Origin: a virus
IMG/VR virus record: IMGVR_UViG_3300042503_000717
Span: 1 to 28,835 of that record
Direction: 5' to 3' (one strand)
DNA: 28,835 bases
The notes below the pieces were generated by a model that had not been told where the DNA came from, did not search any database, and saw nothing but the letters and a program-made list of their open reading frames with translations. Every line of letters begins with the position of its first letter. Position 1 is the stretch's first letter. Shown here piece after piece: positions 3,445 through 15,482 of this stretch. The translations under genes and the position numbers were made by a program.

Positions 3445-3738
3445 ATGAAGACGATACTATGTGCGACTTTGATATTTTATTCTAGTATATGTTTAGGTGC
3501 ATCAGAATGGATTCCATATGTTGAAAGTGTTCCTACGTATCCAACAGTAGAAGTTCAAAGAGTCCCGTCTGTAGTTTTAAGTAATATAGTTGTGAACCCA
3601 AACGTAGTTAGATATCAATGGGTTCCAATGTTTATCAATCGACCAGTTATTATTAATGAGAGTGGATGTTTTATCAAGAGGCAGCACATTATTTATCAAC
3701 CCACTATTGAGTGGATCATTCAGCCGGTTTATCGTTAA
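3445..3738 (+). CDS. exported hypothetical protein, 97 aa
   Basis: The N-terminus MKTILCATLIFYSSICLGA is a Sec signal peptide with a probable cut after CLGA or nearby. The mature part is rich in Val, Pro and aromatic residues (WIPYVESVPTYPTVEV; YQWVPMFINRPV) and looks like an extended beta protein. No recognised domain. AAGGAG precedes the start. One of several proteins in this window predicted to enter the host envelope. Confidence 0.82.
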   Translation: MKTILCATLIFYSSICLGASEWIPYVESVPTYPTVEVQRVPSVVLSNIVVNPNVVRYQWVPMFINRPVIINESGCFIKRQHIIYQPTIEWIIQPVYR

Positions 3739-10302: not shown

Positions 10303-10647
10303 ATGAAAAATTCTAGCACAATAAGTGTACTCCTAATATCGTGTTTGATATCAATTTCTTCAGTCTTAGCATTTGACGCTCAATCAAAGAAAACATTGCT
10401 TATTTTTTCAGCAAAATGGTGCCATTATTGCAAAGTAGCACAAAAAGATCTATTAAATGATCGCAATTTATCAAAAATCATTAAGGATTACGATATCATA
10501 GAATTGGATTACGACGTTGACAAAGACGTTGTGCGGGGCTATAATATCAAAGTGGTGCCATCGTTTGTCATAATGCACCAAGGCAAAGAGCTTGGACGCA
10601 AGACGGGATACAATGGACCATCATCGCTGTATAATTTTCTCAAATAG
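10303..10647 (+). CDS. exported thioredoxin-like protein
   Basis: 114 residues: Sec signal peptide (about residues 1-23, ending SSVLAFD), then a thioredoxin fold with active site W39-C40-H41-Y42-C43 (WCHYC) and the cis-proline motif VVPSF (Pro86). The family catalyses thiol-disulfide exchange. The short, exported form suggests it acts on host envelope or phage exported proteins. The CHYC dipeptide is unlike cytoplasmic thioredoxin (CGPC) and DsbA (CPHC). It lies seven bases upstream of the tmRNA, so it may share its transcript. A GGGGG site sits upstream. Confidence in fold is high; substrate is unknown. Confidence 0.92.
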   Translation: MKNSSTISVLLISCLISISSVLAFDAQSKKTLLIFSAKWCHYCKVAQKDLLNDRNLSKIIKDYDIIELDYDVDKDVVRGYNIKVVPSFVIMHQGKELGRKTGYNGPSSLYNFLK

Positions 10648-10653
10648 AATAAC

Positions 10654-11011
10654 GGGGGCGAAAGGTATCGACAGGTAGACGTAGATATAAATGGCATCCA
10701 CTGGTTAATCGACCGGCCAGTATAAAAGTCGATTAAAATGTTAGTTGGCGAAGTTTCGACTCTCGCTCTCGCTGCCTGACCTAGTTAGGTACGAGCGTGG
10801 CGGTATGAGCCATGTTGCCCAATCATACTGATGTTGATAAGTCAACTGCGTCGATCCGGCAAAGAAATCGGGTAAAATCGCGGTAGACCGCGTGACTCCG
10901 CTAAGTGTGCGGATAGCATTGGTGATTGGTGAAAAATAATCACATAAGGATGTAGATGTTTATATTGGTGTATACTCTGGACGCGGCTTTCGAATGCCGC
11001 CGCCTCCACCA
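10654..11011 (+). ncRNA. ssrA: transfer-messenger RNA (tmRNA)
   Basis: Rescues stalled ribosomes: acts as tRNA-Ala and then as mRNA adding a degradation tag. The 5' end GGGGGCG pairs with CGCCTCC at the 3' end (one G-T pair), and CCA is encoded. The 5' GGTATCGACAGG element and the 3' T arm (stem GCGGC/GCCGC around TTCGAAT plus one extra T) are typical of tmRNA. The tag frame starts at GGC 10747 after a TTAGTT sequence and reads GEVSTLALAA then TGA, ending in the usual LALAA. The middle contains several paired segments expected of pseudoknots. It sits between an exported thioredoxin and an HNH gene, an unusual phage location. Confidence 0.95.
10747..10779 (+). other. tmRNA tag reading frame
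   Basis: Ten codons from GGC 10747 to the TGA at 10777-10779 give GEVSTLALAA. The hydrophobic C-terminus ALAA is what ClpXP and related proteases recognise. The resume codon is inferred from similarity of the preceding TTAGTT to the conserved pre-tag sequence. Confidence 0.85.
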
Positions 11012-11022
11012 TATTATCGTGC

Positions 11023-11058
11023 GCCTCCACAACTTTTTGTGTATAATGTAGTGGAGGC
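11023..11058 (+). promoter_or_regulatory. hairpin sequestering the HNH ribosome site, with TATAAT in its loop
   Basis: GCCTCCAC (11023-11030) pairs perfectly with GTGGAGGC (11051-11058) across a 20-base loop. The right arm contains GGAGG, the ribosome site of the HNH gene starting at 11065. The loop contains TATAAT (11042-11047). Long transcripts from upstream would fold and hide the site. A transcript starting about seven bases after the box would begin near 11054, lack the left arm and keep the site open. This resembles T4 I-TevI and lysozyme mRNA. Confidence 0.6.
11039..11047 (+). promoter_or_regulatory. candidate promoter -10 (GTGTATAAT)
   Basis: TATAAT (11042-11047) preceded by GTG. No convincing -35 lies 16-18 bases upstream. 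It is part of the shared GTGTATA element and sits in the loop of the hairpin described above. Confidence 0.4.
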
Positions 11059-11064
11059 AAAATT

Positions 11065-11598
11065 ATGAAAACAACAGAAATAACCTGTGCGGAATGTGGC
11101 ATAAAAAGCTCTAAAAGAAAAGCAGAAATAGATAGACAGATAAAAAAAGGAAAAACTGTTTTTTATTGCAGTATTAACTGTGCTTCTAAAAATTCATGTT
11201 CACACTTAGAAAAATATCACGGATTATACAATCAAAATTTAGTATCAAATAATAGATTAGATGAGTTTACATCGTTTAAATGGTATATCAAAGTCGTTCG
11301 GAAAAATTCAAAAAGTAGAAAGCACGAATATAATATTGACTGCAAGTATTTAAAAAAGTTATGGGAAGAACAAAATGGCACTTGTCCATTTACAAACAAA
11401 AAATTGATACTAAGAACTCATTCTAATAATGATATAACAAAATCCCCATACCAAGCGTCACTAGATAGAATAGATAACTCTATTGGATATATTGAAGGCA
11501 ATGTTAGATTTGTTGCTTTGATATATAACTATGCTAAGAATACATTTTCAGATCAAGAAGTCATAGATTTTTGTAAAACTGTGGCAAAGAATTTTTAA
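11065..11598 (+). CDS. HNH endonuclease
   Basis: 177 residues. N-terminal zinc-finger-like region with CAECG (about residue 8) and CSINC (about residue 35), then an HNH-type core: CPFTNKKL, ASLDRIDNSIGYIEGNVRF, and NYAKN. The family of phage HNH nucleases uses this SLDRID-----GY--GNV segment for metal-dependent DNA cleavage. It is likely free-standing and may be a homing endonuclease; it sits directly behind the tmRNA, whose 3' end is duplicated in front of it. Its ribosome site GGAGG is inside an 8-bp hairpin. Start ATG 11065. Confidence 0.9.
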   Translation: MKTTEITCAECGIKSSKRKAEIDRQIKKGKTVFYCSINCASKNSCSHLEKYHGLYNQNLVSNNRLDEFTSFKWYIKVVRKNSKSRKHEYNIDCKYLKKLWEEQNGTCPFTNKKLILRTHSNNDITKSPYQASLDRIDNSIGYIEGNVRFVALIYNYAKNTFSDQEVIDFCKTVAKNF

Positions 11599-11685: not shown

Positions 11686-11901
11686 ATGAAGACTTTGTTT
11701 ACTTGTGTTGCTTTGTGTCTTTGTGTTTCAACCGCTAATGCTGGCGAGTGCGTGAATGGTAGCTGCAATCTTCGCAGCCGTACCGTTACCGTGGCCCGTG
11801 AGCTTATTAGCGTTCCAGTTGAGGTAACACGACGTACAGTAGAGGCTACACGAAACGTTGGTCGCCGCACGGTGGCTCGCGTTCGAAGCGTTGTTCGTTA
11901 A
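11686..11901 (+). CDS. exported small basic protein, 71 aa
   Basis: Signal peptide MKTLFTCVALCLCVSTANA (cut after ANA), then GECVNGSC and a mature part very rich in Arg and Val (about 13 Arg after the signal) with no acidic run. Codon use (CGT, CGC, GTG, GTT) is far more GC-rich than in neighbours. Good AAGGAG site. Could coat nucleic acid or bind an envelope component; the GECVNGSC motif looks like a small class of secreted proteins that I associate with Planctomycetes. No function assigned. Confidence 0.78.
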   Translation: MKTLFTCVALCLCVSTANAGECVNGSCNLRSRTVTVARELISVPVEVTRRTVEATRNVGRRTVARVRSVVR

Positions 11902-12363: not shown

Positions 12364-13233
12364 GTGATAACAACAATCCAAAATATATTAGATCAGCAAA
12401 TATCAGAACAGGTTAAAAAGCCAAACGTTGAAGATATTGTTGAATACTCATGTTTGTTTTCTTACACAGAGCATGGAAACTTAGAATATACTGCTCATGA
12501 TAAGTGCTGTATCCCTAGAGTGATGGAGTTACTGTCAATTCTTAAGCACTTTAATATCAAAAATACTTCATTCTTACTATACACCCACGATTATACAAAA
12601 GACTACGAAGACAATCGTAACTACGTTTTATGTTTTGGTAAGAAAAAGAACCAATTATTTATTACAATACCGAATAATCATTTATTGAATGGGACGGTTG
12701 ACTATTTTTTGAATGAAGTTAGAATGAATGATATAGAAATCGACCACAAATCAAATCAAAGTTTATTTATTGGTGGTCCTAATGGTGGTATTAGTGGCCC
12801 TAGATCTGAATATGTTTTTTCTGGCTTAGATAATGTAAAGCATAAGATAATATTAACTAATTGCATGTTGTTTAATATTCAACAGCAATTAAAATTCAAG
12901 TTTCTCATTAACATAGACGGGAATGGGATGTGTTATGATAGACTATATTGGCAGCTTGCTAGTAATTCTATTCCAGTATATCTACAAAGAAATGAAGACA
13001 TTGTGCAGCTTCACGACTCACTCATTTTACCCAATGTGCACTATCTAAAATCCAGTATAGCAGATTGGGGTACAACATTTGAAACTTTGGGTGAAGACAT
13101 AAAGTTGAATGAAATAAGCTCTAATGGTAAATCTTTTATTAGAGAACATTTTGGCCTTTCTTCAAAAAATACTTCTATTCAAATTCTAAAATACACAATA
13201 GAACAAATATCGAAAAAACAAAATGCAAACTAA
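12364..13233 (+). CDS. glycosyltransferase, GT90 (CAP10/LpsA)-like
   Basis: 289 residues. Central GGPNGGISGPR (residues 137-147) followed by NIDGNGMCYDRLYWQL (183-198), which fits the conserved core of GT90 (CAP10-like) enzymes that transfer xylose, glucose or mannose. Acts in the cytoplasm, most likely on an LPS, capsule or phage protein substrate. The GTG start at 12364 is not supported by a ribosome site, so the N-terminus is uncertain; ATG 12523 is the next candidate but would remove about 50 residues. One of four glycosyltransferases in the window. The 3' end overlaps the next gene by 11 bases. Confidence 0.82.
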   Translation: MITTIQNILDQQISEQVKKPNVEDIVEYSCLFSYTEHGNLEYTAHDKCCIPRVMELLSILKHFNIKNTSFLLYTHDYTKDYEDNRNYVLCFGKKKNQLFITIPNNHLLNGTVDYFLNEVRMNDIEIDHKSNQSLFIGGPNGGISGPRSEYVFSGLDNVKHKIILTNCMLFNIQQQLKFKFLINIDGNGMCYDRLYWQLASNSIPVYLQRNEDIVQLHDSLILPNVHYLKSSIADWGTTFETLGEDIKLNEISSNGKSFIREHFGLSSKNTSIQILKYTIEQISKKQNAN

Positions 13234-13573
13234 AATTTGTCCAAAGTGTAGTATAGAAAAACCACTCAGCGACTTTAGGCTCAGACAAAGATCTGAAGAT
13301 AATAGCACAAGTAGAATATATACAAATTGCAAATGTTGCGAAAACAAAATCAATAATCTACTTACAAAGCTAAAAAAAGATAGCCCAGATAAGACATCTA
13401 AATGTGAATGTTGCGGAGTGGAAAGCGAAAAATTGCACCTAGACCACTCGCACGAAACAGATAAATTTCGCGGCTGGTTATGCAATAATTGTAATGTTGG
13501 GCTTAGTAGATTGGGCGATAATATTGACGGTGTAATCAAAGCGCTCAATTATTTGCTATCTAGAGATAGATAA
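13223..13573 (+). CDS. recombination endonuclease VII-like protein
   Basis: 116 residues. N-terminal CPKC (6-9) and CKCC (36-39) pair for one zinc site; then CECCG, LHLDHSHET and FRGWLCNNCNVGLSRLGD, the hallmark D-H-H...RG-LC--CN--LG of the endonuclease VII family, which resolves branched DNA. It is a minimal version (T4 gp49 is 157 aa). Such genes are also common as stand-alone homing-like elements between phage genes. Follows a glycosyltransferase and is itself followed by an HNH gene. Confidence 0.92.
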   Translation: MQTKICPKCSIEKPLSDFRLRQRSEDNSTSRIYTNCKCCENKINNLLTKLKKDSPDKTSKCECCGVESEKLHLDHSHETDKFRGWLCNNCNVGLSRLGDNIDGVIKALNYLLSRDR

Positions 13574-13574
13574 T

Positions 13575-13581
13575 GTGTATA
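13575..13581 (+). promoter_or_regulatory. candidate GTGTATA promoter-like element
   Basis: GTGTATA followed by TGATATAGG, 15 bases before ATG 13596 in a 22-base gap. Matches the shared heptamer; no -35 seen. Weak. Confidence 0.3.
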
Positions 13582-13595
13582 TGATATAGGTTATT

Positions 13596-13979
13596 ATGTT
13601 TAAATTTTTTGACAATTTTGGCAGATCTTCAAATTGGCGTAAGGTTAGGGCAGATCATCTAATTAAATTTCCTTACTGTTCCGCTTGTGGAAAAACAAAA
13701 GATTTAGAAGTACACCATATTATTCCTTATCACGTAGATAGTTCTAAAGAACTAGATCCAGATAATTTAATAACGTTGTGCGGTACATCTTGTCACTTTG
13801 TTTTTGGTCACTTTATGGATTGGAAAAGTTGGAATCCTAATATATTAGAAGATAGTAAAGCGTATTACATAGCCAAGAAGAACAAGCCTCTTAATAATAA
13901 ATATGGGTCAAGCTATGAAAATACTATGCTTAATACTATCTTTAATTATATCCTCGACTTTATACGCTGGGACAATTGA
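13596..13979 (+). CDS. HNH endonuclease
   Basis: 127 residues with a compact HNH motif: YCSACG (C28, C31), LEVHHIIPYH (H40, H41), ELDPDNLITLC with N57 and C62, and C66-H67. The two CxxC-type pairs hold the structural zinc and the two H residues and N form the HNH site. Family members nick or cleave DNA. The last 65-77 bases overlap the gene of the exported protease in another frame, so its C-terminal KYGSSYENTMLNT tail may be non-essential. Probably a free-standing homing-type nuclease. Confidence 0.88.
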   Translation: MFKFFDNFGRSSNWRKVRADHLIKFPYCSACGKTKDLEVHHIIPYHVDSSKELDPDNLITLCGTSCHFVFGHFMDWKSWNPNILEDSKAYYIAKKNKPLNNKYGSSYENTMLNTIFNYILDFIRWDN

Positions 13980-14691
13980 TCCAAATCAATCAGATTTAGC
14001 CCACATACAATACGGTGCCAAGCACGAATGTGTAGCTAAAATTACTGGCACATATAAAAAAGACAACAAAACAACTAATTTTTTTGCTTCTTCTGTTATT
14101 ATAAAACCAAGAATATTTTTGACTGCCGCACACATTGTTGACGGAGCTACAGATATATTCATAGTAGATAATAGTGGAAATAAAATACCTGTTAAATCTG
14201 CCTTATATTTAGACAGATGGGATAGTAATAAAGTTGGACCGCATGATATAGCTATAGGTCTTTTAGAGAAAGACATACAGTTAGCATTTTATCCAACACT
14301 ATACGAAAAAGATGACGAAGTTGGCAAAACGTGTAGCTTGGCTGGATTCGGCATTACTGGTAATTATATGCAAGGATCAAAAATAAGCGACGATAAAAAA
14401 AGAGCAGGATCAAATATTATAGATGAAATATTCAACGGTATGTTATCTACATCTGTTGGTAATAAAAACAAAACCTCTCTTGAATTTCTAATCGCACATG
14501 GAGATAGCGGTGGTGGTTTATTTATAGATCAAAAATTGGCTGGAATACATTCTGGAATAATGACAGAAGACGCAGACAAAAATTTGAATTCTGACTATAA
14601 AGATCAAGCAGCACACACTAGAATAAGTTCTAATAAAAAATGGATTGATGAAATGATTAAAAAACTTGAAACGCTCGACAGAAACAATTAA
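13915..14691 (+). CDS. exported trypsin-like serine protease
   Basis: 258 residues from ATG 13915: signal peptide MKILCLILSLIISSTLYAG, then a chymotrypsin-fold protease with triad H73 (LTAAH), D111 (PHDIAIG) and S198 (AHGDSGGGL). Family members cleave peptide bonds; the exported form would act in the periplasm or outside. Substrate not apparent. ATG 13903 four codons upstream is possible. The start lies inside the preceding HNH gene (overlap 65 bases), and no clear ribosome site is visible. Unusual for a phage; may degrade host surface proteins or process a phage exported protein. Confidence 0.88.
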   Translation: MKILCLILSLIISSTLYAGTIDPNQSDLAHIQYGAKHECVAKITGTYKKDNKTTNFFASSVIIKPRIFLTAAHIVDGATDIFIVDNSGNKIPVKSALYLDRWDSNKVGPHDIAIGLLEKDIQLAFYPTLYEKDDEVGKTCSLAGFGITGNYMQGSKISDDKKRAGSNIIDEIFNGMLSTSVGNKNKTSLEFLIAHGDSGGGLFIDQKLAGIHSGIMTEDADKNLNSDYKDQAAHTRISSNKKWIDEMIKKLETLDRNN

Positions 14692-14696
14692 GACAT

Positions 14697-15482
14697 ATGT
14701 TTAAGGAGCATTCTCTTTTAGATTTTAAGAATACAGACCCAAAATATGTATTCCACAATAAACTATACGAAAACACTTATATAGACTATCAATATTTGAT
14801 GTCTTTTTTTGACAGCTTAGACAAAGAAATTGAACATATATTATTTTTGATGTGTGATGAATTGTTCAGACTAAATTGTCCACATCACATAAATCTATTT
14901 TGCACATCTAATGAGGGTCAGAGTAATAATGTGTTTACTTTCCCATATTTTTTAGAACCAATTAATGAATCTTATAATCCTATAAAATCTGACAAACCCA
15001 TTGTTTCATTTTGTGGTTTTATAAGTAATATATCCAGACTTTTATGTATCAAAGAGCTAGATAAAGATGATAGGATACAAACCAATTTTCTTATCAGAGA
15101 TAAGTTTTGGGCTGGGAAGCCTCACGATATAAATGTCATATCAGAATATAGAGAAAATTTACGCAACTCCCAATTTGTTTTATGCAATAGGGGTGCTGGG
15201 AATTGGTCAATGAGATTTTATCATACTTTAGAAGCCGGAAGAATTCCAATCTTAATAGATAGTGGGAACGAGCTACCTTTCAAAAAACATATAGATTACA
15301 CAAAATATATTATTATGGCACATAACGAAAAAGATATGATCAAAAAGGTTATGTACACTTGGAATCACGAAGATATAATAGAAAAACAAGCAAACTGCTC
15401 TAAGCTGTATCAAGAATGGTTTAGCCCATTATCGTTTGAAGAAAAAATAAAGTTACACATTAAAGACTATAAAGGTAGTTAA
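14697..15482 (+). CDS. glycosyltransferase, exostosin/GT47-like
   Basis: 261 residues. YRENLRNSQFVLCNRGAGNW (151-170) followed by SMRFYHTLEAGRIPILID (171-188) is the conserved core of GT47 exostosin-like transferases (Y---L--S-F-LC-RG-G--S-R-YE-L-AG-IPI). These transfer sugars from a nucleotide donor. Compact size implies a single domain. It begins five bases after the protease stop. Donor and acceptor cannot be told. Confidence 0.87.
   Translation: MFKEHSLLDFKNTDPKYVFHNKLYENTYIDYQYLMSFFDSLDKEIEHILFLMCDELFRLNCPHHINLFCTSNEGQSNNVFTFPYFLEPINESYNPIKSDKPIVSFCGFISNISRLLCIKELDKDDRIQTNFLIRDKFWAGKPHDINVISEYRENLRNSQFVLCNRGAGNWSMRFYHTLEAGRIPILIDSGNELPFKKHIDYTKYIIMAHNEKDMIKKVMYTWNHEDIIEKQANCSKLYQEWFSPLSFEEKIKLHIKDYKGS

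Follow-up and report, generated by a model that had tools for sequence, protein, structure and literature searches.

An IMG/VR virus record of 28,835 bases, the whole of which we refer to as the window, carries a complete one-piece tmRNA gene that, with a probability of roughly two in three, encodes a working tmRNA that would use the SmpB of the host and whose 3' end was co-converted by a freestanding HNH homing endonuclease. The argument draws on a comparison set of 16 distinct loci with a thioredoxin gene (trx) next to a tmRNA (the window and 15 IMG/VR relatives), found by searches with an rIIA-like protein, the thioredoxin and T-arm patterns. Two extra loci, L392 and L393, contain a tmRNA preceded by a different ORF instead of trx. 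The features of the window are as follows:

10303-10647, plus strand: trx, exported thioredoxin-like protein of 114 aa with a WCHYC motif
10517-10545, plus strand: sigma70-type promoter TTGACA-17-TATAAT inside the trx ORF, the predicted tmRNA promoter (12/12 consensus match)
10654-11011, plus strand: one-piece tmRNA (ssrA) of 358 nt, 3' CCA encoded
10654-10660, plus strand: 5' strand of the acceptor stem, pairing with 11001-11007
10685-10699, plus strand: 5' strand of H2, pairing with 10948-10965 (8/8 middle and 5/5 distal pairs, covarying in relatives)
10700-10736, plus strand: pseudoknot PK1 (S1 10700-10704/10717-10721, S2 10705-10713/10728-10736)
10747-10779, plus strand: tag frame GEVSTLALAA-stop, resume codon GGC
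10775-10789, plus strand: H5 apical hairpin CCUGAC/GUUAGG, containing the stop codon
10968-11588, plus strand: putative mobile 3' cassette (T arm, acceptor 3' strand, CCA, leader hairpin, HNH), delimited by joints relative to L127 and identity to L053
10983-11000, plus strand: T arm with 8-nt loop, GCGGC UUUCGAAU GCCGC
11001-11011, plus strand: acceptor 3' strand, discriminator A and encoded CCA
11023-11058, plus strand: predicted HNH leader hairpin, GCCTCCAC...GTGGAGGC
11065-11598, plus strand: freestanding HNH-type endonuclease gene, 177 aa

The original prediction of a complete phage-borne tmRNA, for which a covariance search had been proposed as a check, was borne out. Using cmscan, Rfam model RF00023 matched exactly 10654-11011 on the plus strand, end to end (model positions 1-374), with 86.2 bits (E 2.2e-32) compared to a gathering cut-off of 47 bits. 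ARAGORN made no call here, either in the original sequence or with the T loop cut in silico to 7 nt, and it does call the tmRNA of the relative L122 (tag GETQLALAA); as the miss was unchanged by the shortened loop, it reflects a limitation of the caller. All tmRNAs found in Planctomycetota and Verrucomicrobiota reach at least 108 bits, so that the window tmRNA scores lower, and related phage tmRNAs, where scored, range from 76 to 130 bits. The statement that few phages carry a tmRNA holds when taken as a fraction of genomes (402 of 18,146 phage genomes, 2.3%; PMC9004378), yet phage tmRNAs are an established kind, of which earlier lists exist (PMC4131195).

The predicted closed acceptor stem was recovered with 7/7 pairs (GGGGGCG/CGCCUCC, including a G3-U wobble) and is followed by an encoded ACCA. 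The wobble is kept in 16/16 loci, and compensatory variation at acceptor pairs 4-6 was seen in two loci. In the T arm, 5/5 stem pairs (GCGGC/GCCGC) enclose the loop UUUCGAAU with its UUCGA; these five pairs vary on both sides across the 16 loci, none becoming non-standard, and six T-stem types occur in the 16 loci and a seventh in L393. The extra T suspected in this loop is real: 8-nt loops are present in six other IMG/VR loci (L053, L092, L349, L340, L392 and L393), which rules out a sequencing slip, and the bacterial tmRNAs with parsable ends have a 7-nt T loop in 48/48 cases. H5, with 6/6 pairs in the window, covaries to CCUAAU/AUUAGG and CUGCUUA/UAAGCAG in relatives. The expected pairing of the pseudoknots held in full for PK1, which forms 5 + 9 pairs in the window and pairs perfectly, with compensatory changes, in five relatives; for PK2-PK4 the window offers candidate stems of tentative assignment, in a region that is replaced between relatives. 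In this region (tmRNA nt 190-290, window 10843-10943) the window, L350 and L349 share a wholly different variant, and other relatives with similar 5' halves differ there, as if pseudoknots had been swapped.

The ten-codon tag ending in LALAA-stop also reads as predicted (GGC GAA GUU UCG ACU CUC GCU CUC GCU GCC UGA, GEVSTLALAA*). Five in-frame variants occur in the 16 loci (GEVSTLALAA, GETRFALAA, GEVTLALAA, GETQLALAA and GANQLALAA), which are 9 or 10 codons long, differ by changes of whole codons and all end in ALAA, as do ordinary tags. Judged from these comparisons, both the structure and the tag of the tmRNA are under selection, and the compensation in T stem and acceptor stem, the kept tag frames and the invariant G3-U pair together constitute strong comparative evidence that the window encodes a functional phage tmRNA.

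The tmRNA is flanked, as had been noted, by an exported thioredoxin (Pfam Thioredoxin_2, 1.2e-10) upstream and an HNH gene downstream. The stop codon of trx lies 6 nt upstream of the tmRNA in the window, and the tmRNA begins 0-6 nt past the trx stop in 15 of the 16 loci; next to more distant thioredoxin relatives no tmRNA was present in the DNA examined. The sigma70-type promoter inside trx, about 110 nt upstream of the tmRNA, appears as TTGACA-17-TAYAAT across 14 close relatives. Among the 41 invariant residues of the 14 close trx genes only four are encoded by a single codon (V, D, K and N), and these are exactly the codons that encode both promoter hexamers (hypergeometric probability about 1e-5, in a test framed after the promoter had been seen). 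L340 has kept only TTGACA, and L350 has lost the promoter. We infer that TTGACA-17-TATAAT is the promoter of the tmRNA. At three other loci (L337, L392 and L393) a 229-aa ORF with no assigned function lies directly 5' of the tmRNA; in L337 this ORF separates trx from the tmRNA as an insertion, which indicates that the 5' side of the tmRNA is also an insertion point.

Transcription from this promoter would yield a precursor that host tRNA-processing enzymes could trim and that could be charged with alanine by virtue of the G3-U acceptor stem. SmpB was not found in five phage records, hence the tmRNA presumably works with SmpB of the host. The tag A-GEVSTLALAA would then be added on stalled ribosomes, keeping ribosomes free during infection, and its ALAA end suggests ClpXP-type degradation of the tagged proteins. 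Two other readings of the RNA have to be weighed against this. The score below those of bacterial tmRNAs, the ARAGORN miss, the additional T-loop nucleotide and the divergent body might point to a decaying or inhibitory molecule, which would not rescue ribosomes or would titrate SmpB like the short molecule of DS6A. However, compensatory changes preserve all stems of the tRNA-like domain across the 16 loci, which also retain their tag frames and, without exception, the G3-U pair; the promoter is conserved, and the DS6A molecule is without the mRNA part (PMC4131195, PMC11915505) that the window tmRNA possesses; decay or inhibition is thus quite improbable. Somewhat less improbable, though still unlikely, is a tag adapted to the phage's own needs, for instance one that steers host proteins towards a given protease or adaptor or keeps them from it, as was proposed for phage Melnitz (PMC9004378). 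Tags starting with GE match none of the 128 bacterial tags sampled, which would fit such adaptation, but the tags share a constant ALAA end with ordinary ones, the five variants in close phages suggest that the middle of the tag is relaxed, and the tag might simply be host-like.

Three features escaped the original prediction, which was accurate for the RNA itself: the promoter within trx, the lateral exchange of tmRNAs and the joint travel of the additional T, the CCA and HNH. The CCA is encoded at 7/7 loci with an 8-nt T loop and at 0/11 loci with a 7-nt loop, and an HNH gene follows the tmRNA at 6/7 and 1/11 of these loci, respectively, counts which are not independent samples. The link between T loop and HNH is not absolute, given two exceptions: in L340 (8-nt loop) an endonuclease VII-like gene replaces HNH, and in L348 HNH and a second HNH-like ORF lie behind a 7-nt-loop, CCA-less tmRNA. 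The first of the two tandem ORFs of L348 has a C-terminal part nearly identical to that of the L053 protein, and an N-terminal half that is not. L341, L346 and L347, from which HNH is absent, have an 87-nt tRNA gene 16-33 nt past the tmRNA.

Comparison of occupied and uninterrupted sites (L127 and L341, where HNH is absent) places the joints of the exchanged DNA. The window aligns collinearly with L127, at about 84%, as far as the first tmRNA bases and again from 11589; in between, a different tmRNA type plus HNH exactly replaces the tmRNA of L127, which sets the right edge of the cassette at 11588/11589. Its left edge is uncertain within 10946-10968: the last 66 nt of the window tmRNA are identical to those of L053, and the tmRNA bodies differ. 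Between L053 and the uninterrupted L341, homology on the left stops at the acceptor sequence CGCCTCCAC and on the right begins two bases back, at ACTTGACAATAG, which places the HNH segment immediately at the end of the tmRNA, to the base; L092 compared to L335 displays the same pattern. Phylogenies of the neighbouring parts conflict. The trx tree groups the window with L127 (97/93) and the tmRNA-body tree groups it with L350 and L349 (100/100); a constraint uniting the window and L127 in the tmRNA body was rejected (p 2e-124), as was a tmRNA-body clade of the three loci sharing T arm and HNH (window, L053 and L092; p 5e-43). This indicates three modules that are exchanged independently: trx, the tmRNA body, and the T arm with HNH. 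Together, the 8-nt T loop, the encoded CCA and HNH behave like one cassette whose insertion point coincides with the 3' end of the tmRNA.

Homing is the likely mechanism of this 3'-end exchange. When related phages co-infect a cell, the HNH enzyme would cut their tmRNA genes close to the 3' end, and repair would copy in HNH along with the adjacent T arm and tmRNA stretches of varying length; the occupied and empty sites and the conflict between the trees are consistent with homing, without being proof of it. The main rival is a mosaic generated by ordinary homologous recombination at short conserved blocks, with a working tmRNA and HNH as a passive passenger. Phage genomes are mosaic, the 5' and 3' ends of the tmRNA are its most conserved blocks and could serve as joints, and L340 and L348 break the link between T loop and HNH. 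Recombination of this kind would, however, have to account for joints that coincide with the 3' end of the tmRNA although the right flanks of several loci are unrelated, for an HNH leader with the regulatory layout of a homing endonuclease, and for an exchanged part that is the T arm adjoining HNH; we regard it as unlikely, but as a serious competitor. Genomic islands commonly integrate at the tmRNA gene (PMC11915505), and the 3' joint might accordingly represent the attachment site of an integrase-borne element. This is very improbable, as the inserted DNA comprises only the HNH gene and its leader and the far side is without an intact T arm; neither an integrase gene nor paired att repeats were seen in the flanks read.

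The protein encoded downstream of the tmRNA matches phrog_3322 (endonuclease, 4e-21) and phrog_3118 (HNH endonuclease, 1e-12) and has no match to a Pfam domain or to the sequences of solved structures; its AlphaFold model (pLDDT 43) was discarded. The canonical HNH histidine is not obvious, and His119 is invariant in four sequences. Its nearest annotated homologues are found in crAss-like phages (41%), none of them beside tRNA or tmRNA 3' ends. In five HNH-containing loci a leader hairpin of -11.6 to -19.3 kcal/mol is predicted, which in the window would cover the Shine-Dalgarno sequence of HNH and has an extended -10 element, TGTGTATAAT, in its loop (11038-11047). In I-TevI, segB and Aeh1 mobE a leader hairpin likewise masks the ribosome site and contains a promoter (PMC2988022), and the predicted HNH leader of the window resembles those of T4 homing endonucleases. 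The acceptor sequence CGCCTCCAC is repeated in the HNH leader, and one may speculate that, as with I-TevI, this repeat duplicates the target to act as an operator. More broadly, and tentatively, HNH might target the T arm and 3' end, with the 8-nt T arm and CCA as a protected allele; HNH would then be a selfish gene that brings a replacement 3' end to an RNA of essential type, the T stems of rival phages would be forced to diversify by compensatory changes (at least 7 types), and the leader CGCCTCCAC would be its operator copy. Two more consecutive endonuclease VII/HNH-like ORFs are located at 13223-13979, 1.6 kb past the first HNH gene.

Like the one-piece tmRNAs of Bacillus phage G and the mycobacteriophages Bxz1, Catera and Wildcat (PMC4131195), the window tmRNA is complete, with a tRNA-like domain and a tag frame, and a phage SmpB was likewise not found in the window group. 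It differs from them in its tag GEVSTLALAA, its 8-nt T loop, the promoter in the thioredoxin ORF and HNH at its 3' end. OM43 phage Melnitz also represents a tmRNA in a large environmental phage, but its tmRNA is permuted, in two pieces and placed under a glutamine riboswitch, in contrast to the one-piece tmRNA with embedded sigma70 promoter described here (PMC9004378). T4 SegB often adjoins tRNA genes (PMC13096335) and drives preferred inheritance of the T4 tRNA region, according to Brok-Volchanskaya 2008 as cited in PMC2988022; it and other freestanding homing endonucleases thus resemble the window element in lying beside small-RNA genes and in biased inheritance of a region (PMC2988022, PMC13096335). 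SegB, however, is a GIY-YIG enzyme acting on a tRNA intergenic region, whereas the window enzyme is HNH-type, sits at the tmRNA 3' end and, unlike SegB, appears to come with a substitute T arm and CCA. Group I introns, some with homing endonuclease genes, target the T loop of tmRNA (PMC11915505) and are alike in being mobile DNA aimed at the T arm; unlike these, the window element involves no intron or splicing, sits past the gene and remakes its 3' end. In the open-licence literature we found neither a freestanding HNH cassette remaking a tmRNA 3' end nor a tmRNA promoter inside the preceding gene with conservation at the codon level.

These observations bear on why some phages carry a tmRNA: in this phage group the gene has a predicted, conserved promoter of its own concealed in trx, encodes a tag that is under selection and is exchanged between phages as a unit. 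Homing endonucleases are known to spread phage tRNA genes, and our results suggest that they also spread and remodel tmRNA genes. If homing is true, a gene for RNA processing has become a landing site for selfish DNA. Matched allele pairs are available, with a 7-nt loop and neither CCA nor HNH on the one side and an 8-nt loop, CCA and HNH on the other.

At the nucleotide level none of 50,697 phage records gave a match, the terminase and DNA polymerase of the phage match those of known phages at only about 25-33%, and no cultured close relative was found by these terminase, DNA polymerase and nucleotide comparisons. The tag had been put forward as a pointer to the host, a link that is not established: 0/128 bacterial tmRNAs have a tag beginning with G, in a sample consisting mostly of Clostridia, Planctomycetota, Verrucomicrobiota and Desulfobacterota, without Bacteroidota and many other phyla. 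A Bacteroidota host, suggested by tags starting with GE, was not retained: literature containing such tags was not found, and conservation of TTGACA/TATAAT speaks against it. A Planctomycete host, guessed from small exported proteins, was dropped: one such window protein had no match in 199 Planctomycetota and 195 Verrucomicrobiota genomes, a search that was uninformative. Small exported Cys/Arg/Val-rich proteins without phage matches are encoded at 11686-11901 and 3445-3738 and may hint at the host envelope. Unusual phage cargo includes an exported trypsin-like protease (13903-14691) and an exostosin GT47-like glycosyltransferase (14697-15482). Three assemblies contain two tmRNA genes each, namely L166 (Geobacteraceae MAG), G010 (Desulfamplus MAG) and G007 (Neomarinimicrobiota MAG), and the second tmRNA of G007 scores only 78 bits, like phage tmRNAs.
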